Of a DNA stretch of 64,000 bases, positions 40,684 through 50,633 are shown in pieces (position 1 is the stretch's first letter; each line of letters begins with the position of its first letter). The notes beneath the pieces are model-generated. The model did not search any database. It saw nothing but the letters and a program-made list of their open reading frames with translations, and had not been told where the DNA came from. The DNA is from Ottowia thiooxydans DSM 14619 (GTDB lineage Bacteria; Pseudomonadota; Gammaproteobacteria; Burkholderiales; Burkholderiaceae_C), in assembly GCF_000422885.1 (NCBI RefSeq), contig NZ_AUGX01000001.1, forward strand, positions 559,238 to 623,237. The letters are read 5' to 3'. A program made the translations under genes and the position numbers.

Positions 40684-41757
40684 TTAGCTGAACTGGCGCA
40701 GGAAGCGCACATCGCCCTCGAAGAACAGGCGCAAATCATTCACGCCGTAGCGCAACATAGCCAACCGGTCGATGCCGGAGCCGAAGGCGAAGCCGATAAA
40801 ACGCTCAGGATCAAGGCCCATGTTGCGCACCACTTGGGGATGCACCTGGCCGGAACCGGAAACTTCCAGCCATTTACCTGCCAAGGGCCCGGTTTGGAAC
40901 TGGATATCGATCTCGGCGCTGGGCTCTGTAAACGGAAAGTAGCTCGGCCGGAAACGCAAAATGAGATCGTCGGTTTCGAAAAATGCTTTGCAGAAATTAA
41001 GGTAGGTGACCTTCAAATCCTTGAAGCTCACGTTTTCGCCCAACCAGAGTCCTTCGACCTGATGGAACATGGGTGAGTGTGTGGCGTCGTTATCTACGCG
41101 GTACGTGCGACCAGGCGCGATCACGCGGATTTCGCTCATCTCACCGCGTGCGAGACGCTCTGCTTGCGCCTTGGCGTGCGCCGTGGCGTAGCGGATCTGC
41201 ATGGGGCTGGTGTGGGTACGCAGGCAGTACGGCTGGCCGTCTGCGTCTTTCATATCCACGTAAAAGGTGTCCTGCATGGATCGCGCTGGGTGGTTCGGCG
41301 GATTGTTCAACGCCGTGAAGTTGAACCAATCGCTTTCGATCTCCGGGCCATCGGCCACGTCGAATCCCATGCTGCCAAAGATGGCCTCAATGCGTTCCCA
41401 GGCCAGGGAAATGGGATGCAGGCCACCCGTACCGCGTTGGCGTCCGGGCAATGTGACATCCAGCGCTTCGGCACGCAGTTGGCGGTCCAGGTCAGCATCT
41501 TGCAGTGCTTGACGGCGCGCATTCAGGGCGCCTTCGACCGCTTGTTTGACTACGTTGATGGCGGCGCCGCGTGTTTTCTTTTCTTCCACTGGCAGCGCGC
41601 CCAGGCCTTTCATCAGCTCCGTAAGACGGCCGGTCTTACCGAGGTACTGAGCCTTGGCGTTTTCCAGATCGGCCGGAGTGGTGGCCTCGCTGAAAGCCGC
41701 GCGCGCGCTTTCGACAATCGTATCGAGTTCAGAGGCGGCGGAAACGGGTGCGTTCAT
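40684..41757 (-). CDS. pheS: Phenylalanyl-tRNA synthetase alpha subunit
   Basis: The 357-residue product starts at ATG 41757 ([20 protein letters not shown]); the frame stays open upstream, but that segment is the leader. It has the coiled-coil arm, the class II motif 2 and motif 3 regions ([43 protein letters not shown]) and the usual C-terminal QFS end. It lies 112 bp downstream of rplT, with two stem-loops in between (41793-41813 and 41827-41860). Confidence 0.97.
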
Positions 41758-41792
41758 GGCAGACGGAAAACAACGATGAAATGAAAAAGGGA

Positions 41793-41860
41793 TTGAGGCC
41801 GGTCTGGCCTCAACCCCTTGGGCAATCTGCAAACCTCACTATGGGAGGTGATGTTTGCAG
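41793..41860 (-). terminator. Two stem-loops between rplT and pheS (possible terminator/attenuator)
   Basis: Reading leftward from the rplT stop, the first stem is CTGCAAACATCAC with its near-complement GTGAGGTTTGCAG (41827-41860). It is followed by TTGAGGCC-AGACC-GGCCTCAA (41793-41813), then ATCCC and a T5 run. The second resembles a weak intrinsic terminator that would reduce read-through into pheST. No Phe-rich leader reading frame was found before it. Confidence 0.5.
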
Positions 41861-41868
41861 AGAGGGTT

Positions 41869-42228
41869 TCAGGCAGCCAGCTTAGCTTTGGCCTGCTCCA
41901 CGATGCCGGCAAAAGCCGCCTTGTCATGCACAGCGATGTCAGCAAGGACTTTGCGATCGATTTCGATGCCGGCCTTGCGGATGCCGTTGGCAAACTGGCT
42001 GTAGGTCATACCGCATTCACGCGCAGCGGCGTTGATACGGGCAATCCACAGACGACGGAATACGCGCTTCTTGGCACGGCGGTCACGGTATGCATATTGA
42101 CCGGCCTTCATCACCGCCTGTTTGGCGATGCGATAGACGTTACCGCGGCGACCGCGGAAACCCTTAGCAAGGGCGAGGACTTTCTTATGGCGAGCTCGGG
42201 CTGTTACACCACGTTTAACGCGAGGCAT
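41869..42228 (-). CDS. rplT: 50S ribosomal protein L20
   Basis: The 119-residue protein begins [20 protein letters not shown] and keeps the L20 core [20 protein letters not shown] and [16 protein letters not shown]. It is needed early in 50S assembly and represses its own operon in several bacteria. It is 26 bp downstream of rpmI. Confidence 0.98.
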
Positions 42229-42254
42229 GTTATTTTTCCTTGTTCGTCAGTTGA

Positions 42255-42458
42255 TCAAAGGCCAGCGAATGGCAGCATTTGTGCCATGTGACCCATATTG
42301 GTCTCATGCACATTCACCGCACCGCGCAATTGGCGTTTGTTCTTGGTGGTCTTCTTGGTCAAGATGTGACGTTTGAAGGCTTGACCGCGCTTGACGGTGC
42401 CACCGGGACGAACGCGAAAACGTTTCTTCGCGCTGCTCTTAGTTTTCATTTTGGGCAT
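42255..42458 (-). CDS. rpmI: 50S ribosomal protein L35
   Basis: The 67-residue protein, [20 protein letters not shown], then [18 protein letters not shown], is a standard L35. It lies between infC and rplT. The 178-bp gap before it is structured (see 42459-42636). Confidence 0.98.
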
Positions 42459-42636
42459 TTAAATGCTCACTTTTGAATTGTGCTCGTGAGGCGTCTGCAA
42501 ACTGCTTGCAGCCTTGTTGGCCCCGAGACACTTCTTATAGTCAGCCTTTCAGCTGACTCATCTGCCTGCACACCCCTCTCCAGAGGAGTGGAGCGCACTG
42601 GCAAATTCTCATCTCACCATCTACCCCAATTCGGGA
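42459..42636 (-). promoter_or_regulatory. Structured infC-rpmI spacer (candidate L20-responsive leader)
   Basis: The spacer, read leftward, contains the stem AGTCAGC-TGAAAG-GCTGACT (42539-42558), a CCTC-TGGA-GAGG stem and a CTGCAA...TTGCAG pair nearer rpmI. In Escherichia coli and Bacillus, L20 represses this operon through RNA in the same place. The structures are visible; the function is by analogy. Confidence 0.4.
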
Positions 42637-43251
42637 TCAGCTATCTGCCTGCACCGCTGCTGGTTGACCCGCCACGACAGGCTTGACCGCACCGCCACCG
42701 CCTGGTTTCTTGCGCGCCGGAGCAAGCATCATGATCATCTGACGACCTTCAAGCTTCGGAAACTGCTCGACCAGAATCTGATCGGCCAGCTCGTCCCGAA
42801 TACGGTTCAGCAACGCCATGCCCAGATCTTGGTGCGTGATTTCGCGGCCGCGAAAACGCAGCGTGACTTTCACCTTGTCGCCATCGCCCAGGAAGCGGCG
42901 AATATTGCGCATCTTGATGTTGTAGTCACCATCGTCCGTACCAGGGCGGAACTTGACTTCCTTGATCTCGATAACCGTTTGCTTGGCCTTGGCTTCGGCG
43001 GCCTTCTTCTGTTCGAGATACTTGAACTTGCCGTAATCCATCAGCCGGCAAACCGGCGGATTGGCATTGGCAACAACTTCGACCAAATCAACGTCGTACT
43101 CACCAGCCAGGCGCAAAGCCTCCTGGATTGGCACAACGCCAAGGGGTTCATTTTCAGGACCGTTGAGGCGAACCTCTGGGGCCATGATTTCTCGATTCAG
43201 ACGGTGGGCACGTTCCTCCCGCTGGCGGCGATCACGAAAATTGGTAGCTAT
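42637..43251 (-). CDS. infC: Translation initiation factor IF-3, probable AUA start
   Basis: IF-3 domains are complete: [20 protein letters not shown] and [13 protein letters not shown] at the N-terminus, [20 protein letters not shown] in the linker and ITLRF-type C-terminal strands ([20 protein letters not shown]). The conserved N-terminal segment begins at IATNFRDRR, whose first codon is ATA at 43251, exactly eight bases after GAGGA. The only canonical-type starts are a TTG at 43266, which overlaps that ribosome site, and an ATG inside the folded domain. An AUU-like rare start is the known basis of infC autoregulation in E. coli, so AUA here fits. Confidence 0.9.
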
Positions 43252-43337
43252 GGCAAAAATCCTCAATACAAAATGCTACGAACACGTAGCGAAAGCCGCT
43301 CATTACACGCGGGCCAGAGCTTGTTTCGGGTAGAAAT

Positions 43338-45245
43338 TCAGGCTTTGGAAGCAATGTCTTCGGCGATACGCTTGGAAAACGCATCCAGAGACATTACGCC
43401 GAGATCAACATTGCCTCGGGCGCGCACTGCGACGGCGCCAGCCTCCCTTTCCTTGTCCCCTACGACCAGGATAAAAGGTAGCTTTTGCAACGAATGCTCT
43501 CGTATTTTATACGTTATCTTCTCGTTGCGCAGATCCGTCTGCACTCTAACCCCTTGATCACGCAGCGTTTTCGCCACGGTTTCAACGTAATCAGCCTGTG
43601 AATCAGTGATATTGAGGACCGCAACCTGTACCGGAGCCAGCCATACAGGCAATGCGCCAGCGTAGTGCTCAATCAGCATTCCGATGAAGCGTTCCAGGCT
43701 GCCCACGATAGCGCGGTGCAGCATGACAGGCCGGTGCCGCGCGCCGTCTTCGCCTACATATTCCGCATCCAGCCGTTCCGGCATGTTGGGATCCACCTGC
43801 ATGGTGCCGCACTGCCATTCCCGGCCAAGGGCGTCTTTCAGGGTGTATTCGATCTTGGGGCCATAGAAGGCACCCTCGCCGGGGCTGATCTGAAACTCAC
43901 ATCCAGAGGCGCGCAGACCTGCCTTCAAGGCTTCTTCAGCCTGATCCCAGCTTTCCTCAGTTCCAATGCGCTGCTCAGGCCGTGTGGCCAATTTGTAGAT
44001 GATCTCGGTGAAGCCGAAATCCTTGTACACGTCTTGCAGCAGTGTGGTGTAGGCCGTGCATTCGGCCTGGATCTGCTCAGGCGTGCAGAAAATGTGGCCA
44101 TCGTCTTGAGTGAACCCGCGCACACGCATGATGCCGTGCAGGCCGCCACTTGGCTCGTTGCGGTGGCAATTGCCGAACTCGCCGTAGCGCAGGGGCAGAT
44201 CACGGTAGCTTTTAAGGCCTTGCTTGAAAATCAGGATGTGGCCGGGGCAGTTCATCGGCTTGAGCGCGTAATCCCGCTTTTCCGATTCAGTGACAAACAT
44301 GTTGTCGCGGTATTTGTCCCAGTGCCCTGTTTTCTCCCACAGGGATTTGTCCAGAATCTGCGGGCCTTTGACCTCGTGGTAGCCGTTGTCAATATAGATG
44401 CGGCGCATGTACTGCTCCACCTGCTGCCACAAGGTCCAGCCTTTGGGATGCCAGAACACTGTACCGGGCGAATGCTCGTCAATATGGAAGAGATCAAGTT
44501 CCCGGCCCAGCTTGCGGTGATCGCGCTTTTCCGCTTCTTCAAGCATGCGCAGGTAGTTTTGCAGCTCGTCCTTACTGGTCCAGGCCGTGCCATAAATACG
44601 CTGCAGCATTTCGTTGCGATGGTCACCGCGCCAGTAAGCACCGGCCAATTTCATCAGCTTGAAATGTTTGAGCTTGCCTGTAGACGGCACGTGGGGGCCA
44701 CGGCACAAGTCTTCAAACGCGCCTTCACGGTACAGCGAGACGTCTTCGTTGGAAGGAATGCTGGCAATGATTTCGGCCTTGTAAGCCTCGCCAATGCCTT
44801 TGAAATACGAAACCGCTTCATCACGAGGCAATACGCGACGAACCACAGGCTCGTCCTTGGCCGCCAGTTCGGTCATTTTTTTCTCAATGGCCGCCAAATC
44901 CTCAGGCGTGAATGGGCGTTTGTACGAGAAATCGTAGAAAAACCCGTTTTCAATCACCGGGCCAATGGTGACTTGCGCGTCCGGGAACAACTCTTTGACG
45001 GCATAAGCCAACAAGTGAGCCGTGGAATGGCGAATCACCTCCAGGCCATCTGGATCTTTGGCGGTGATGATGGACAGAGGGCTGTCTTGCGTGATCTGAA
45101 AGCTGGTGTCAACGACCTTGCCATCGATCTTGCCAGCCAGTGCCGCTTTCGCCAGACCTGAGCCAATGGAAGCGGCCACCTCGGCCACAGTCACCGGGCC
45201 GGGGAACTCGCGTTGGGAACCGTCAGGGAGTGTGATGTGAATCAT
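43338..45245 (-). CDS. thrS: Threonyl-tRNA synthetase
   Basis: The 635-residue enzyme starts at ATG 45245 ([20 protein letters not shown]). It carries the TGS domain, the editing domain ([20 protein letters not shown]), the catalytic core with zinc ligands (MNCPGH) and motif 2 ([18 protein letters not shown]), and the anticodon-binding domain ([20 protein letters not shown]). It heads the thrS-infC-rpmI-rplT-pheST-ihfA block. The frame continues upstream through the leader, but a strong terminator hairpin there and a Thr-rich leader frame show that segment is untranslated regulatory RNA. Confidence 0.97.
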
Positions 45246-45269
45246 GTGGGAATCCTGGTCTTCAAAATG

Positions 45270-45301
45270 AAAAAAGCGCGGAGCAAGGTCCGCGCTTTTT
45301 T
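45270..45301 (-). terminator. Intrinsic terminator in the thrS leader (attenuator)
   Basis: Read leftward, AAAAAAGCGCGGA-CCTTGC-TCCGCGCTTTTTT is a perfect 13-bp stem with a T6 run, ending 25 bp before the thrS ATG. Sitting inside the 5' leader of a synthetase gene, it must be read through conditionally. The upstream sequence at 45329-45336 can pair with its left arm. Confidence 0.85.
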
Positions 45302-45343
45302 CGAGGGCAAAGGCTAAATCTCGTGCAGGCGCGAACGGCCAGC

Positions 45344-45385
45344 CTAGCGGCTGGTGAGAATCTCCGTTGTAGTTCGCGGTGTCAT
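45344..45385 (-). CDS. Threonine-rich leader peptide of thrS ([13 protein letters not shown])
   Basis: A 13-codon frame, ATG at 45385 to TAG at 45344, encodes [13 protein letters not shown]: five threonines in 13 residues, three of them consecutive and using ACT, ACA and ACG codons. AAGG lies about 11 bases upstream. Its CGCGAAC (45372-45378) can pair with GTTCGCG (45330-45336), and TTCGCGC (45329-45335) can instead pair with GCGCGGA in the terminator's left arm. A ribosome stalled on the Thr codons would cover the first partner and free the second to block the terminator. This is the classical attenuation layout; no homologue comparison was possible. Confidence 0.7.
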
Positions 45386-45566
45386 AACCGACTATGCCTT
45401 TCTCGCCCTTATGGGTTACAGATGGTGAGATTCTACCGGGTCCCGAGTTGGTTTGCCTGGCCACTGGCTCGGATTTTCTCACCAGCCGGGGATGAACGTG
45501 ATCGGCTGTGAAGTGGTGGCAAGGATCGAAAAACGTGGCAAAACACCAGTCGCAGCCGTCATACAA

Positions 45567-45895
45567 GCCGAAACGGCCTTCTCATCCTAGATTTCAAAAA
45601 ACCTTTGAGTTGCCGCAACACGCAGCGCTTTAGCGCCCCACTTCGCTTGGCTCGAAACTGAAAACTCTCCCCTCCTCGACCGTGTATCAGGCCATTTTCA
45701 GTGCTCGCTCTTCAGCCGAAATCGAGGCGCACAACGAACCAAGGGTTTTTACCAAGACACCCTGAATCCATAGCTTGAGGGAATCAAACAATCTCCACAT
45801 TTGATTGGACGGTTATCGATTGAGGCTCTCTAATCCGGCCCACGCAAAGCCCTCTTTCGAGGGGCGAAGAGCGTCGCAACAAATAGGAGACAACA
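45567..45895. other. Divergent intergenic region between the thrS leader and the TRAP operon
   Basis: No gene or tRNA was recognised. It contains the inverted repeat AATCAAA-N11-TTTGATT (45782-45806), about 90 bp before the first TRAP gene, a likely operator for that operon's unidentified regulator. A good GGAG ribosome site precedes 45896. Confidence 0.5.
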
Positions 45896-46438
45896 ATGGA
45901 TGCATTGGGCCGAGGCGCACTCGCTGTGCTGCGCTGGCTGATCGTGCTATGCGTGGGTGCCATGGTGGTGCTCGTGTTCGGGAACGTCGTACTAAGGTAC
46001 GGTTTCAACTCCGGCATCAGCATCTCGGAGGAGGCAGCGCGGTACTTTTTCGTATGGCTCACCTTCCTGGGTGCTGTAGTCGCCATGTACGACCACGCGC
46101 ATCTAGGTGTGGACACCTTGGTCTCGCGGCTGCCGGTGATGGGTAAGAAATTCTGCGCAGTACTCAGCGACGTATTCATGCTCGGCTGTTGCGTACTGCT
46201 GCTGATTGGAAGTTGGAAACAAACGCTTTTCAACATGGACAACGCGGCCCCGGTCTCCGGTGTACCGGTCGGCGTCATGCACGCAGCAGCAGTGGTGTCC
46301 AGTGTAGGACTGATCATCGTGATCACGTCGCACTTGATGCGAGTGCTTAGCGGCCGAGCTGGCGTGGACGAGCTTGTGCAGGTGGTCGAAAGTGAAGAGC
46401 GTATGCCTGAAGCGGCGTTGCCAGAGGTGCGCAAGTGA
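45896..46438 (+). CDS. dctQ: TRAP transporter small membrane subunit (DctQ type)
   Basis: The 180-residue protein has the four-helix DctQ pattern: ALAVLRWLIVLCVGAMVVLV, RYGFNSGISISEEAARYFFV (amphipathic link), TFLGAVVAMYDHAHLGVDTL and a last helix AVVSSVGLIIVITSHLM. With DctM it forms the sodium-driven channel for acids delivered by DctP. The ribosome site GGAG is well placed, and the gene opens a six-gene operon. Confidence 0.92.
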   Translation: MDALGRGALAVLRWLIVLCVGAMVVLVFGNVVLRYGFNSGISISEEAARYFFVWLTFLGAVVAMYDHAHLGVDTLVSRLPVMGKKFCAVLSDVFMLGCCVLLLIGSWKQTLFNMDNAAPVSGVPVGVMHAAAVVSSVGLIIVITSHLMRVLSGRAGVDELVQVVESEERMPEAALPEVRK

Positions 46439-47712
46439 CCATCGCCGTCTTCCTTTTCTCGCTGCTCGGCGCCATGGCGCTTGGTATGCCAATTGCCTTC
46501 GCGCTAGTCGTTTGCGGCGTCGCGCTGATGGTTCAGCTCAACAACTTCGATGCGCAAATCATTGCGCAAAACCTGGTCAACGGGGCTGACAGCTTTTCGC
46601 TGTTGGCAGTGCCTTTCTTCATGTTGGCAGGCGAATTCATGAATGCGGGCGGCATCTCACGTCGCATCGTGAACCTGGCCATGTCGTTGATCGGCCATAA
46701 ACGCGGCGGCCTGGGTTACGTGGCGGTGTTCGCTGCCATTTTGATGGCCAGCATGTCAGGCTCCGCCGTCGCCGATACCGCCGCCGTGGGCGCGCTTTTG
46801 ATTCCGATGATGCGCAAAGCAGGTTACGACGTGCCACGCTCGGCTGGCTTGATCGCCTCCGGGGGGATCATTGCACCGGTGTTGCCGCCATCCATTCCAT
46901 TCATCATCTTCGGCGTCGCGGGCGGTGTTTCGATCAGCAAGCTGTTCTTGGCAGGCATTGTTCCGGGGCTGATGATGGGCATCGTACTGGTGTTCACATG
47001 GTGGCTTGTCAACCGCAAGGAAGAACTCACGGTGGCGCCACGCCAGTCGATGCGCGAAGTGCTGTATTGCCTCAAGGATGGCATCTGGGCGTTGGTCATC
47101 CCGGTACTGATCGTAGGGGGTATCAAGGCGGGTGTCTTCACACCCACCGAAGCCGGTGTGGTGGCTGCGGTTTACTCCTTCCTCGTGGGTAAATTTGTCT
47201 ATAAGGAACTGAAGTTTTCGCAGCTCTATGAGCTGATGTTGTCAGCGGGCAAAACAACCGCAGTGATCATGTTCCTGGTCGCGGCAGCGGCGGTTTCAGC
47301 CTGGCTCATCACTATCGCTGATTTGCCGCAAGCCGTTATTGGATTGCTGGAGCCATTGATCGACAACAAGATCTTGTTGATGGTGGTCATCATGATCATT
47401 GTGGTGCTCGTGGGAACCGCGATGGATCTGGTACCTACGATCTTGATCCTGACACCTGTACTGATGCCAGTGGTCAAGCAAGCAGGCATTGATCCGGTGT
47501 ACTTCGGCGTGTTGTTCATCATGAATAACGCCATCGGCCTCATCACGCCGCCAGTAGGCACTGTGCTCAACGTGATCTGCGGCGTCAGCAAGATCACCAT
47601 GGATCAAGTGATGAAGGGCATCTGGCCATTCCTGCTCGCGCACTTGTTGCTACTGGCCGCGTTCACTTTATTCCCGCAGCTCGTGCTGATCCCCATGAAG
47701 TGGTGGATGTGA
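46435..47712 (+). CDS. dctM: TRAP transporter large membrane subunit (DctM type)
   Basis: The 425-residue protein with about twelve helices has the DctM signatures LAVPFFMLAGEFMNAGGISR, then GSAVADTAAVGALLIPMMRK, and ILILTPVLMPVVKQAGIDPV with FFGVLFIMNN-like text (YFGVLFIMNNAIGLITPPVG). It starts at a GTG overlapping the dctQ stop (GTGA). It is the transport channel subunit shared by both DctP proteins downstream. Confidence 0.94.
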   Translation: MTIAVFLFSLLGAMALGMPIAFALVVCGVALMVQLNNFDAQIIAQNLVNGADSFSLLAVPFFMLAGEFMNAGGISRRIVNLAMSLIGHKRGGLGYVAVFAAILMASMSGSAVADTAAVGALLIPMMRKAGYDVPRSAGLIASGGIIAPVLPPSIPFIIFGVAGGVSISKLFLAGIVPGLMMGIVLVFTWWLVNRKEELTVAPRQSMREVLYCLKDGIWALVIPVLIVGGIKAGVFTPTEAGVVAAVYSFLVGKFVYKELKFSQLYELMLSAGKTTAVIMFLVAAAAVSAWLITIADLPQAVIGLLEPLIDNKILLMVVIMIIVVLVGTAMDLVPTILILTPVLMPVVKQAGIDPVYFGVLFIMNNAIGLITPPVGTVLNVICGVSKITMDQVMKGIWPFLLAHLLLLAAFTLFPQLVLIPMKWWM

Positions 47713-48632
47713 GCGAGATCGCAGATATGCAGGCCCGTGATTTCCCTATCGTCGATGCGCACCAGCATTTCTGGGAGCCAGAACGAAACTATCACCCCTG
47801 GCTAAACGACGAGCCAATGATCCCGTTCCGCTATGGGGATTACACGGCGATTCGCAGCCGATTTCTGCCACCGGACTATATGGCGGCAACCGGTGGGTGG
47901 AAGGTTGCAAAGACCGTCTACGTTGAAACCGAATGGGATCACCGCGACCCTTTGGGCGAAACGCGGTATATCCATAAGGTAGCCGCGGAATTCGGAGTGC
48001 CGAATGCTGTGGTTGCCCAGGCTTGGCTCGATAGCGAAAACGCCAGGGACTTGATCGTTGCCCAGGCGGCCTTCCCGTTGGTACGTAGCGTGCGCCACAA
48101 GCCTCGTGCAGCCGCCAGCGCGGCGCTAGCGCAACGCGGTGCCAGGGGCAGCATGGATGACCCGCGATGGCGCGACGGTTTCGCTCATCTGGCCCCAAAT
48201 CATCTGATGTTTGATTTGCAAACGCCTTGGTGGCATCTGGACGCAGCCGCAGACCTGGCGGGGGACTTTCCCTCCACCACGATAGTGCTCAACCACGCGG
48301 GGCTTCCGTCAGACCGCAGCGTACCCGGCTTGGCCGCCTGGCGTTCGGCTATGGAGCATCTGGCGAGAGCTCCCAACGTCATGCTCAAGATCTCGGGAAT
48401 AGGACTGGCAGACCGACCATGGCGCGCGGAGGACAACATACCAGTGGTGCGCGATGCGATCTCGATCTTCGGGGCAGAGCGCTGCATGTTCGCCAGCAAT
48501 TTCCCCGTTGACAGTCTGATCGGAGACTTCAACACCATCTTCAGCGGTTTTGCACAGGCCACGGCATCAATGCCATGGGAAGTCCAACGTGGGCTCTTTC
48601 ATGACAACGCGTGCCGGGTCTACCAACTATGA
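47709..48632 (+). CDS. Amidohydrolase 2-family metal-dependent hydrolase (lactonase-like), copy 1
   Basis: The protein of about 307 residues belongs to the COG3618 TIM-barrel group that includes fucono-, rhamnono- and galactaro-lactonases. It has the metal motif IVDAHQHFWEP, the phenolic-wall block KVAKTVYVETEWDHRDPLG, RSVRHKP, TTIVLNHAGLP (metal His) and MFASNFPVDSL. The GTG at 47709 overlaps the dctM stop (GTGA); GTG 47700 or ATG 47727 are alternatives. A paralogue with matching motifs is two genes downstream, each copy followed by a dctP gene. Hydrolysis of an imported sugar lactone is plausible. Confidence 0.85.
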   Translation: MSEIADMQARDFPIVDAHQHFWEPERNYHPWLNDEPMIPFRYGDYTAIRSRFLPPDYMAATGGWKVAKTVYVETEWDHRDPLGETRYIHKVAAEFGVPNAVVAQAWLDSENARDLIVAQAAFPLVRSVRHKPRAAASAALAQRGARGSMDDPRWRDGFAHLAPNHLMFDLQTPWWHLDAAADLAGDFPSTTIVLNHAGLPSDRSVPGLAAWRSAMEHLARAPNVMLKISGIGLADRPWRAEDNIPVVRDAISIFGAERCMFASNFPVDSLIGDFNTIFSGFAQATASMPWEVQRGLFHDNACRVYQL

Positions 48633-48669
48633 CCCCTGTTCACTGAATTCATAAACGAAGGAGACAAAC

Positions 48670-49689
48670 ATGAAGAAATCATTTCACCTCGCTATCCTGG
48701 CCGCTCTCACGTGCACCGCTTTGGCAGTTCCCCTGGGCGCCAACGCTCAAGTGCGTGAGCACACCTTCCGCATCAGCACCGGCGATCCATCTGCCGCCCC
48801 AGGACCCATGGGTAATAAGCGCTTCGCAGAGTTGGTCGCCAAAGCCAGCGGCGGCAAGATGAAGGTCAAAACCTACGACTCTGCCATGCTCGGAAACGAT
48901 GTTCAGATGCAAGGCATGCTGCAAGGTGGGACCATGGATTTCGCACTTGTTGGCGCGCCCACGCTGGGCGGCCTGGTCAAGGAATTCGGCGTCCTGGACT
49001 TCCCCTTCAGCTTTCGCAACGTGCGAGAAGTCGACGCCATGCTCGATGGCCCGATGGGTACACAGCTACTCGATAAGTTGAAGGCCAAGGGCCTTATCGG
49101 CCTGGGGTTCTGGGAAATCGGGTTCCGTCAAGTCACCAATAGCCGGCGTGCAATCACCAAATGGGAAGACCTCGATGGTCTCAAGATCCGAACAGTGCAG
49201 AGCCCGGTCTTCCGCGAGTTCTTCAACAGCACGGGTGCCAATGCCGTTCCGATGGCTATCAACGAGGTTTACACGGCTCTTGAGACCAAAGCCATTGATG
49301 CACAAGAGAACCCGCCATCGATTGTGTCCACACAGAAGTTCTTTGAGGTCCAAAAGCACCTTTCATTGACCAACCACATCTATACCGCGTACGTGCTGCT
49401 GGCAAGCCAGAAGAGTTGGGACAAACTCAACGCGGATGAGCGCAAGATCCTTACGGACGCCGCTGCTAGCGCACGCAGCTACGAGCGCCAGATCGCCCGC
49501 GAGCAAAATTCGGCCTTGCTGGTAGAGCTGCGCAAGCAGATGACGGTCAATGAGCTGAGCCCCGCCGAGACCGCCCGCTTCGCCGAAAAGGCCAAACCTG
49601 TACAGACGAAATTCTCATCCACGCTCGGCGAGGATTTCGTCAAGGCGTGGCTCGGCGCGCTTGATCAAGTTCGTGCCACCGTCAAATGA
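48670..49689 (+). CDS. dctP: TRAP transporter periplasmic binding protein (DctP type), copy 1
   Basis: The 339-residue protein follows AAGGAGACAAAC. It has a signal peptide (MKKSFHLAILAALTCTAL to NAQ) and the DctP fold with the substrate Arg in EDLDGLKIRTVQSPVFREF, NAVPMAINEVYTALETKAID and GFRQVTNSRRAITKWED. It binds an organic or sugar acid and passes it to DctQM. Its partner at 50630-51649 is a paralogue of identical length with the same ribosome site. Confidence 0.92.
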   Translation: MKKSFHLAILAALTCTALAVPLGANAQVREHTFRISTGDPSAAPGPMGNKRFAELVAKASGGKMKVKTYDSAMLGNDVQMQGMLQGGTMDFALVGAPTLGGLVKEFGVLDFPFSFRNVREVDAMLDGPMGTQLLDKLKAKGLIGLGFWEIGFRQVTNSRRAITKWEDLDGLKIRTVQSPVFREFFNSTGANAVPMAINEVYTALETKAIDAQENPPSIVSTQKFFEVQKHLSLTNHIYTAYVLLASQKSWDKLNADERKILTDAAASARSYERQIAREQNSALLVELRKQMTVNELSPAETARFAEKAKPVQTKFSSTLGEDFVKAWLGALDQVRATVK

Positions 49690-50633
49690 CCTCCATGGGT
49701 GATGCAGCACCACTCAATTTGGTGGATGCGCACCATCACCTTTGGGATCTGAAAGCTCACCGCTATCCTTGGCTTCAGGATGCGGTGGAGCCCAACTTTT
49801 TCCTAGGTGACTACGCAGGCATACGGCGCGACTATCTTCCAGGCGACTATCGCAACGATACCCGCCACCATAAAGTCATCGCCACGGTACATGTGGAGGC
49901 TGAACGTGCACGGGATGACCAAGTCGGTGAAACCGCCTGGCTACATCGCCAGCACGCTCGGCACGGGCTGCCAAACGCGGTTGTCGCGCACGCCTGGTTC
50001 CACACGCCTGAAGCCGAGGAAGTACTCGCTGCACAGGCAGCCTGGCCCCTGGTGAAAGGCATCCGGAGCAAACCAGTGACATCTGCCACGCCCGACGCGC
50101 CCCCCCCTCGTGGCGCCGGGTCCATGCATGACCCCCAATGGCTGCGCGGGTTCTCCTTGCTGGAGCAGCACGGCTTCTCATGGGATCTGCGCGTGCCCTA
50201 CTGGCATCTGGCTGAGGCGGCTGAGGTTGCACGGCAGTTTCCAAATACGCCCATCGTGCTGAACCACACAGGTTTCCCTTGGAATCGCTCCGCTGAAGGA
50301 ATAGCTGCCTGGCGGACTGCCATGGAGGAGTTAGCACGCCAGCCCAATGTGCACGTGAAGATATCCGAGCTAGGCCTGCGAGATCTGCCATGGACGATTG
50401 AGTCCAATCGCGGCGTCGTACGTGACACGATCACCATTTTCGGCATGGAACGTTGCATGTTCGCAAGCAATTTTCCAGTGGCCGGTCTACGAATCGGATA
50501 CGACGCATTGATAGAGGCTATGCAGCAGATCCTCGCCGATTTCACGGCCTCCGAGCGCGACGCCTTCTTTCGTCGTAATGCACTGAATTTCTATCGGATT
50601 TCCCCCCCTGACTTACAAGGAGACAAACCATGA
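49686..50633 (+). CDS. Amidohydrolase 2-family metal-dependent hydrolase (lactonase-like), copy 2
   Basis: The 315-residue protein starts at ATG 49686, overlapping the stop of dctP copy 1 (ATGA). It shows the same sequence landmarks as copy 1: NLVDAHHHLWDLKAHRYPWL, KVIATVHVEAERARDDQVGE, GLPNAVVAHAWF, TPIVLNHTGFP and MFASNFPVAGL. The metal His-x-His and C-terminal elements are intact, so both copies should be active, perhaps on related lactones with different sugar parts. Confidence 0.85.
   Translation: MTSMGDAAPLNLVDAHHHLWDLKAHRYPWLQDAVEPNFFLGDYAGIRRDYLPGDYRNDTRHHKVIATVHVEAERARDDQVGETAWLHRQHARHGLPNAVVAHAWFHTPEAEEVLAAQAAWPLVKGIRSKPVTSATPDAPPPRGAGSMHDPQWLRGFSLLEQHGFSWDLRVPYWHLAEAAEVARQFPNTPIVLNHTGFPWNRSAEGIAAWRTAMEELARQPNVHVKISELGLRDLPWTIESNRGVVRDTITIFGMERCMFASNFPVAGLRIGYDALIEAMQQILADFTASERDAFFRRNALNFYRISPPDLQGDKP

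Follow-up and report, generated by a model that had tools for sequence, protein, structure and literature searches.

A probable ribosome-mediated transcription attenuator with a threonine-rich leader peptide in front of thrS in Burkholderiales

The thrS gene in the window (the stretch of 64,000 nucleotides that was analysed) is very probably controlled by a ribosome-mediated transcription attenuator that senses the charging of tRNA-Thr. In the proposed mechanism, a ribosome would start on a 13-codon leader while RNA polymerase transcribes the remaining leader. When charged tRNA-Thr is scarce, the ribosome would stall at codons 5-7 (ACT ACA ACG) and cover the segment CGCGAAC; this would leave the segment GTTCGCGC past the stop codon available to the terminator's 5′ arm (GCGCGGAC), and once these two pair, RNA polymerase would continue into thrS. 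When charged tRNA-Thr is plentiful, the ribosome would reach the stop codon and cover GTTCG, or would leave and allow CGCGAAC:GTTCGCG to re-form, in which case the terminator would fold and transcription would stop. A helix of the start region would close the finished leader and would probably limit re-initiation. The attenuator reading, put forward in the original prediction, gains support from the frame, which comparison among relatives indicates to be conserved as a coding, Thr-rich sequence, and from the terminator, antiterminator and competitors, which persist with some covariation. Moreover, the computed fold switches as required between an early stall and the stop codon, in both Comamonadaceae-type and Oxalobacteraceae-type leaders. 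We infer that the frame is translated, that the leader responds to threonine and that the start-region helix has a role of its own.

The regulated gene, thrS (43338-45245, minus strand), encodes a threonine--tRNA ligase of 635 aa, as identified from its translation and from the NCBIfam equivalog TIGR00418 (728 bits, cut-off 384). The genes infC, rplT and pheS (40684-43266, minus strand; TIGR00168, TIGR01032, and TIGR00468) lie downstream and probably share an operon with thrS. All parts of the leader are on the minus strand as well. The 13-codon leader ORF (45385-45344) begins with ATG at 45385, ends with TAG at 45346-45344, and holds five Thr codons (ACA, ACT, ACA, ACG, and ACC), just as originally described, and the perfect 13-bp intrinsic terminator announced for the space before thrS is also present (45301-45270). 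Its arms, AAAAAAGCGCGGA (45301-45289) and TCCGCGCTTTTTT (45282-45270), form 13 perfect pairs around the 6-nt loop CCTTGC (45288-45283) and are accompanied by a U-run, with 24 bases separating the terminator from the thrS ATG (45245). The putative competitor, or anti-antiterminator, CGCGAAC (45378-45372) lies in codons 3-5 and can pair with GTTCGCG (45336-45330) as predicted, and this pairing also appears in the minimum-energy fold. The second predicted pairing, in which the antiterminator segment GTTCGCGC (45336-45329) takes up GCGCGGAC (45295-45288; the terminator 5′ arm with the first loop base), exists but is one pair longer than claimed, with eight pairs including one G-U. A further hairpin (45354-45339) surrounds the leader stop codon with the arms CCAGCC (45354-45349) and GGCTGG (45344-45339), and its Oxalobacteraceae-type counterpart, CGAC/GTCG, covaries.

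Leader codons 1-5, together with the region that precedes the start codon, form a near-invariant block (45413-45369; GCGAGAAAGGCA-nnnn-GGTTATGACACCGCGAACT), recognized by BLASTN within the genus and by codon counts. Part of this upstream region, GGGCGAGAAAGGC (45408-45396), is the 5′ strand of a long-range helix whose 3′ strand, GCCTTTGCCC (45314-45305), ends 3 nt short of the terminator; in the window the pairing is GGGC..AAAGGC with GCCTTT.GCCC. The window leader folds at -65 kcal/mol (z -4.6; 0 of 200 shuffles were equally low), and the stop-codon hairpin, terminator and long-range helix are all present in the minimum-energy fold beside CGCGAAC:GTTCGCG; the original prediction named neither this hairpin nor the long-range helix. 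The hexamer TAGAAT (45435-45430), read from the sequence, is a candidate -10 promoter element of the leader. A consensus pattern scan for promoters and terminators found no sigma-70-type site there and gave no match in the leader region, despite the plain terminator. In 73 of 91 Comamonadaceae-type leaders and 3 of 49 Oxalobacteraceae-type leaders, the 60 nt that precede the block contain a hexamer of the form TAN[AC]AT. The next gene upstream of the leader encodes DctQ (PF04290; 45896-46438, plus strand) and is divergent; it belongs to a stretch (45896-50633, plus strand) divergent from thrS that carries a TRAP transporter (DctQ, DctM, and DctP) and two amidohydrolase genes (both PF04909).

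Relatives were compared in Comamonadaceae-type regions, the family of the window, and in Oxalobacteraceae-type regions, both family assignments being putative. With thrS as the query, the Comamonadaceae-type survey covered 88 genomes with thrS (86 upstream regions read, two left out), and the Oxalobacteraceae-type survey covered 67 (61 read, six left out). An order-level survey of 108 genomes provided 68 regions that were read (L303-L370), 64 of them outside these two families and four within them, and some genomes are shared with the earlier sets. At the class level, 58 genomes were surveyed and 29 loci from other orders of the class (L371-L399) were examined. The tblastn search did not place thrS in 8 of the 183 first loci and in three order-level loci, and nine of these 11 were oriented by their known strand. 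Finally, 25 diverged leaders (22 from other families and three diverged Oxalobacteraceae-type leaders) were selected by eye because they showed an Arg-Thr or Thr-rich frame; 24 of them were scored in the tests, with L355 dropped. Because the sequences are related, the p-values reported here overstate independence.

The leader is conserved in the genus mainly through its start-proximal block. Of 29 genomes of the genus searched with the leader by BLASTN, 20 gave a match, which in 16 genomes was confined to the block (45413-45369); among the 23 matches listed, 17 (from the 16 genomes) cover only 34-47 bases of it. These block-only matches all precede thrS except for L023, in which the contig end is too near to tell. 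A pattern search for the block across the order (300 genomes) matched 19 genomes at one place each, 18 of them before thrS and one (L042) elsewhere. The surveys by thrS query, which are independent of the block, recovered the leader frame in 72 of 86 regions of Comamonadaceae type and in 51 of 61 of Oxalobacteraceae type; a chance origin of the frame was rejected because it recurs in thrS regions found in this independent way. Block, short ORF and terminator were parsed together in 143 of 165 distinct thrS upstream regions, a set that includes block-selected loci and in which the block-carrying region L151 is absent from the parsed count. A script identified a mismatch-free stem (G-U allowed) with a T-run in all 143 leaders. 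The ORF spans 11-27 codons in Comamonadaceae-type and 11-14 codons in Oxalobacteraceae-type leaders, with median distances from stop to stem of 43 and 29 nt, respectively.

Loss of the frame with retention of the hairpin had been named beforehand as an observation that would count against the attenuator. Most regions do not show it, but a minority does, as 14 of 86 Comamonadaceae-type and 7 of 61 Oxalobacteraceae-type regions lack the frame and several of these keep a hairpin. By eye, three of the ten Oxalobacteraceae-type misses (L173, L181, and L183) hold a diverged Thr frame. Inspection by eye of L069, L070, L105, L109, and L153, which have no leader frame, found a GC-rich hairpin and T-run a few tens of bases past a TAAAAT-like box. 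Among the matches listed (80 of 119 stretches), the block pattern was also found in L191, L209, and L259, which carry Alphaproteobacteria, Omnitrophota and Chitinophaga labels; all come from binned metagenomes and are probably mis-binned Burkholderiales contigs. The genome of the window measures 7.05 Mb, whereas the 28 others searched in the genus are given as 1.3-4.5 Mb; it could be a composite or atypical for the genus.

We take the leader frame as coding and threonine-selected, a reading of the alignments that rests on the in-frame enrichment of Thr, the variety at codon 6, the gaps of 3 nt, the in-frame stop and a GTG start. After codon 5, Thr accounts for 24% of codons in frame against 2-10% in the other frames: 201 of 840 codons against 16 and 20 of 748 in Comamonadaceae-type leaders, and 97 of 399 against 7 and 35 of 350 in Oxalobacteraceae-type leaders. 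The enrichment is greater in the three codons directly after codon 5, where Thr occupies 131 of 276 and 88 of 147 positions in frame and 1-3% out of frame. All four Thr codons are used at codon 6 (ACC 39, ACG 31, ACA 24, and ACT 9 of 143). In the Oxalobacteraceae-type alignment, all 24 gaps within the ORF are of 3 nt, and all 34 occurrences of the stop motif TAGTCG are in frame. One leader (L139) starts with GTG, and synonymous changes occur. The expected conservation of the Thr codons in relatives was borne out at codon 5 (every distinct peptide) and codon 2 (98%) but only in part at codons 6-8, with Thr in 72, 48, and 22% of distinct Comamonadaceae-type peptides and 69, 67, and 36% of distinct Oxalobacteraceae-type peptides. 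Some leaders have only two Thr codons (e.g., MTPRTFPSLI and MTPRTWSFHSGL).

Two features near the leader start are less typical of a coding frame that only reports on threonine. As a Shine-Dalgarno sequence, the GAAAGG that precedes the start codon matches poorly, on average worse than its shuffled counterparts (mean z +1.0 and +0.8), and, taken at face value, this speaks against strong initiation on the leader ORF. Codons 2-5 are near-invariant in their nucleotides (ACA 138, CCG 139, CGA 140, and ACT 128 of 143), and this strictness, down to the third base, exceeds the needs of Thr sensing.

The layout of the leader is that of an attenuator: Thr codons cluster in a short upstream ORF, an intrinsic terminator lies between this ORF and thrS, a mutually exclusive antiterminator uses the terminator 5′ arm (the swap test is not significant in Comamonadaceae-type leaders and the fold test is positive), and a competitor that overlaps the ORF is opened by a stalled ribosome in the computed fold (the diverged leaders and the ORF:spacer swaps are not in favour). 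Covarying pairings, which had been proposed as a check, were obtained in part, through partial covariation and a swap test in the diverged leaders, but the antiterminator and ORF:spacer swap tests in the Comamonadaceae-type leaders were not significant. In the Oxalobacteraceae-type alignment of 46 rows, the antiterminator is formed by CTAGTCG, which holds the stop codon, and CGGCTAG of the terminator arm and loop, with 95.3% of cells paired compared with 22-34% in slid controls. Two of its seven pairs show two-sided change, and among 500 shuffles 19 match the covariation score and 50 the number of two-sided pairs, a control of only moderate strength. The stop-codon hairpin CGAC/GTCG is 85.3% paired with two-sided change in three of four pairs, and none of 500 shuffles matches its covariation score; the terminator is 97.1% paired with two-sided change in one of six pairs. 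Single cases that fit include ACCACG with CGTGGT in L170 and GACGCG with CGCGCC in L036-L038.

When each antiterminator was compared with swapped partners, its own partner was better in 33 of 49 Oxalobacteraceae-type (p 0.007) and 17 of 24 diverged leaders (p 0.004), and in 44 of 92 Comamonadaceae-type leaders (p 0.3, not significant). For pairing between the spacer and the opening 18 bases of the ORF, which would correspond to the competitor, mean z is -1.13 in Comamonadaceae-type leaders (p ≤ 0.05 in 22 of 92), and there is no signal in Oxalobacteraceae-type leaders (z 0.02). The own-versus-swapped test of this pairing was neutral in the former (own better in 44 of 92, p 0.73), and in the latter the own pairing was the weaker one, being better in only 12 of 49 (p 0.004). 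A different antiterminator, in which codons 2-4 (CCGCG) would pair with the terminator arm CGCGG, was dropped because leaders with an altered terminator arm (L036-L040 and L170, by eye) keep identical codons.

Folds computed with a ribosome placed on the leader are consistent with the proposed switch. The terminator arm is sequestered to 0.72 with the ribosome at codon 6 and to 0.55 with the ribosome at the stop codon in 92 Comamonadaceae-type leaders, and to 0.65 and 0.47, respectively, in 49 Oxalobacteraceae-type leaders. The difference shrinks to 0.03 and 0.00 with shuffled spacers, and the real difference exceeds the shuffled one in 61 of 92 (p 2e-6) and 37 of 49 leaders (p 6e-7), with p-values that ignore relatedness. 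In the window leader, sequestration is 0.77 at codon 6, 0.81 at codon 7, 0.35 at the stop codon, and 0.34 without a ribosome. Because sequestration is greatest when codon 2 is occupied (0.84 and 0.74), the test marks an early stall and not the Thr run as such. The fold would thus read an early stall in general, and the threonine specificity of the signal would come from the codons. The same masking test was flat in the 24 diverged leaders (13 of 24, p 0.46).

Upstream of the leader start, the sequence varies between families but still pairs with bases that closely precede the terminator. Examples of this start-region helix include ATCAAGCTC with GAGCTTGAT in L345, ATCAAACTC with GAGTTTGAT in L336, GGAATCAGA with TCTGATTCT in L318, and GTTTGGAGT with ACTCCAAGC in L347. 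In the diverged leaders, the own partner outperformed swapped partners in 20 of 24 cases (mean -14.2 vs -10.8 kcal/mol, p 0.0003), a test that is not independent of the idea because the idea came from the same leaders, and the helix beat shuffles at the 0.05 level in 7 of 24. The own partner was also better in 52 of 92 Comamonadaceae-type (p 0.03) and 33 of 49 Oxalobacteraceae-type leaders (p 0.02). We infer that this helix closes the leader after the first ribosome.

The reach of the leader extends beyond these two families. As had been hoped of an alignment of relatives, Comamonadaceae-type and Oxalobacteraceae-type genomes share a conserved Thr-rich frame, and a diverged form occurs in several other families of Burkholderiales. 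A Thr-rich short ORF beyond 95% of shuffles was present in 17 of 60 scored order-level regions (about 3 of 60 expected), three of which belong to the two main families; example frames include MFKRTTTTRISR, MSFRTTTTGTLNQG, MFRTSTTTQS, and MLKTDTTTLMISG. The codon CGA followed in frame by ACT or ACG was found in 18 of 25 diverged leaders, which had been picked partly by the Arg-Thr pair. Other order-level regions consist of a tRNA gene and a short hairpin, with no Thr frame seen. A tRNA gene directly precedes thrS in many of the order-level regions, for example L328, L341, L346, and L360; by eye, it is a tRNA-Val, judging from the anticodon region.

Such tRNA genes bear on an alternative in which the hairpin is a plain terminator of an upstream unit and thrS is expressed by constant read-through or from its own promoter. 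Of 65 order-level regions, 48 carry a tRNA T-arm ahead of thrS, and the hairpin is kept in some regions without the frame. In the window, however, a tRNA gene search found none and the upstream gene is divergent, which leaves nothing known there for the terminator to end except the leader. A plain terminator also accounts for neither the Thr frame nor the antiterminator, and we consider it extremely improbable. An RNA-based alternative would be a structured sensor, riboswitch-like or protein-binding, that includes the conserved block and drives the terminator, with the frame as a by-product of this constraint. The conservation of codons 1-5 at the nucleotide level, which exceeds coding needs, the weak Shine-Dalgarno match, and a hairpin (CGGT/ACCG) that places the start codon in its loop and is 98.9% paired would all fit such a sensor. 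This hairpin, which was tried as a candidate element and set aside, shows no covariation. Moreover, a sensor would leave unexplained the frame-specific Thr enrichment, the free third positions, the gaps of only 3 nt and the in-frame stop; other families vary in length and sequence before the Arg-Thr pair, yet the Thr-rich frame is still seen; and no Rfam family scored above its threshold in 43000-48000. The sensor is accordingly judged quite improbable. The Rfam scan of that interval (E up to 10) returned five matches, none a T-box; Thr_leader (RF00506) reached 21.4 bits on the plus and 21.2 bits on the minus strand against a threshold of 55, and both matches rest on the terminator. A T-box or another Rfam family was rejected on the same grounds.

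In the remaining alternative, threonyl-tRNA synthetase (ThrRS) would bind a tRNA-Thr-like hairpin in its own leader and block thrS translation, and the terminator and frame would be incidental. This is the known mechanism in E. coli, as described in PMC8058203, and the start-proximal block is conserved enough for a protein site. Among the 29 leaders examined outside the order, 16 have a hairpin with an NGU anticodon-like loop within the 150 bases that precede thrS; one example among these loci, GTGATCTCTCGTATGGATCAC, mimics the anticodon arm of tRNA-Thr and is of the E. coli operator kind. The corresponding hairpin is at chance level in Burkholderiales, where a 6-bp stem was required in 165 Comamonadaceae-type and Oxalobacteraceae-type regions (none found, 0.7 expected from shuffles) and in 61 regions of other families (one found, 0.6 expected). 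Relaxing the stem to 5 bp gave 1 of the 165 (1.1 expected). An E. coli-type operator in this order was rejected on these counts, and the contrast with E. coli thrS control that had been anticipated is in agreement with them. The ThrRS mechanism also needs neither a premature terminator nor a coding Thr frame, and it is a highly improbable account of the leader. In L380, from another order, the frame MWPLVSATTTLG passes through the operator-like hairpin, a possible overlap of the operator and leader-peptide solutions.

Attenuation by the leader peptide is thus the reading we prefer, and if true it means that Burkholderiales control thrS by reading threonine codons. The E. coli gene is the standard example of a synthetase repressing its own messenger by tRNA mimicry, and the boundary between operator and attenuator would be visible in sequence (16 of 29 leaders in other orders against chance level in Burkholderiales); an essential gene would then have cleanly exchanged one kind of RNA control for another. 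The attenuator further predicts that infC, rplT and pheS may also respond to threonine. It would add a leader peptide and an RNA element that no Rfam family recognizes in the scanned part of the window (43000-48000). A 2010 paper by Lopatovskaya et al. (doi 10.1134/S0026893310010164), cited in PMC4833913, reportedly covers the same kind of system, to go by its title. No thrS leader peptide in Betaproteobacteria was found among the open-access titles and abstracts covered, which were part of some result listings. The main texts of PMC2965389, PMC4833913, and PMC2659441 do not mention thrS.

It is possible, though rather doubtful, that the near-invariant Arg-Thr core CGA-AC(T/G), which recurs in other families amid diverged sequence, and the start-region helix with its co-changing strands, which would close just when the terminator is due to form, go beyond textbook attenuation, in an order from which the ThrRS-bound operator would be absent and replaced by the attenuator. 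On the same tentative reading, the core could be a pacing codon (a slow CGA) or a site for ThrRS or another factor; the leader would then read a second signal besides tRNA-Thr charging, and a single ribosome would read each transcript.

Classical ribosome-mediated attenuation and the E. coli operons that use it (thr, trp, his, leu, ilv, and phe) are described in PMC1183508. As in the operons described there, the putative thrS attenuator has a short ORF rich in cognate codons, a stop codon in or next to a competing hairpin, an antiterminator that takes the terminator 5′ arm, and a logic of stall versus completion. Unlike them, it would control an aminoacyl-tRNA synthetase and not a biosynthetic operon, and it has early regulatory codons (5-8), a near-invariant start-proximal block and an extra start-region helix. 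The nearest synthetase case of attenuation would be E. coli pheM-pheST. The translational operator of E. coli thrS, a tRNA-Thr-like element bound by ThrRS according to PMC8058203, concerns the same gene and also acts from the 5′ leader. The Burkholderiales leader would instead act by ribosome stalling and termination in place of protein binding and a translational block, and the mimic hairpin is at chance. With the thrS T-box of Firmicutes, which senses tRNA-Thr charging and acts by antitermination, the proposed attenuator would share both the signal and the mode of output; the T-box differs in that it binds uncharged tRNA directly, without a leader ORF. In the E. coli trp leader, the start region of the peptide pairs with distal leader RNA, and the thrS leader likewise appears to sequester its translation start region by a later segment. 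However, the thrS-leader helix is located just before the terminator, and both of its strands change together between families.
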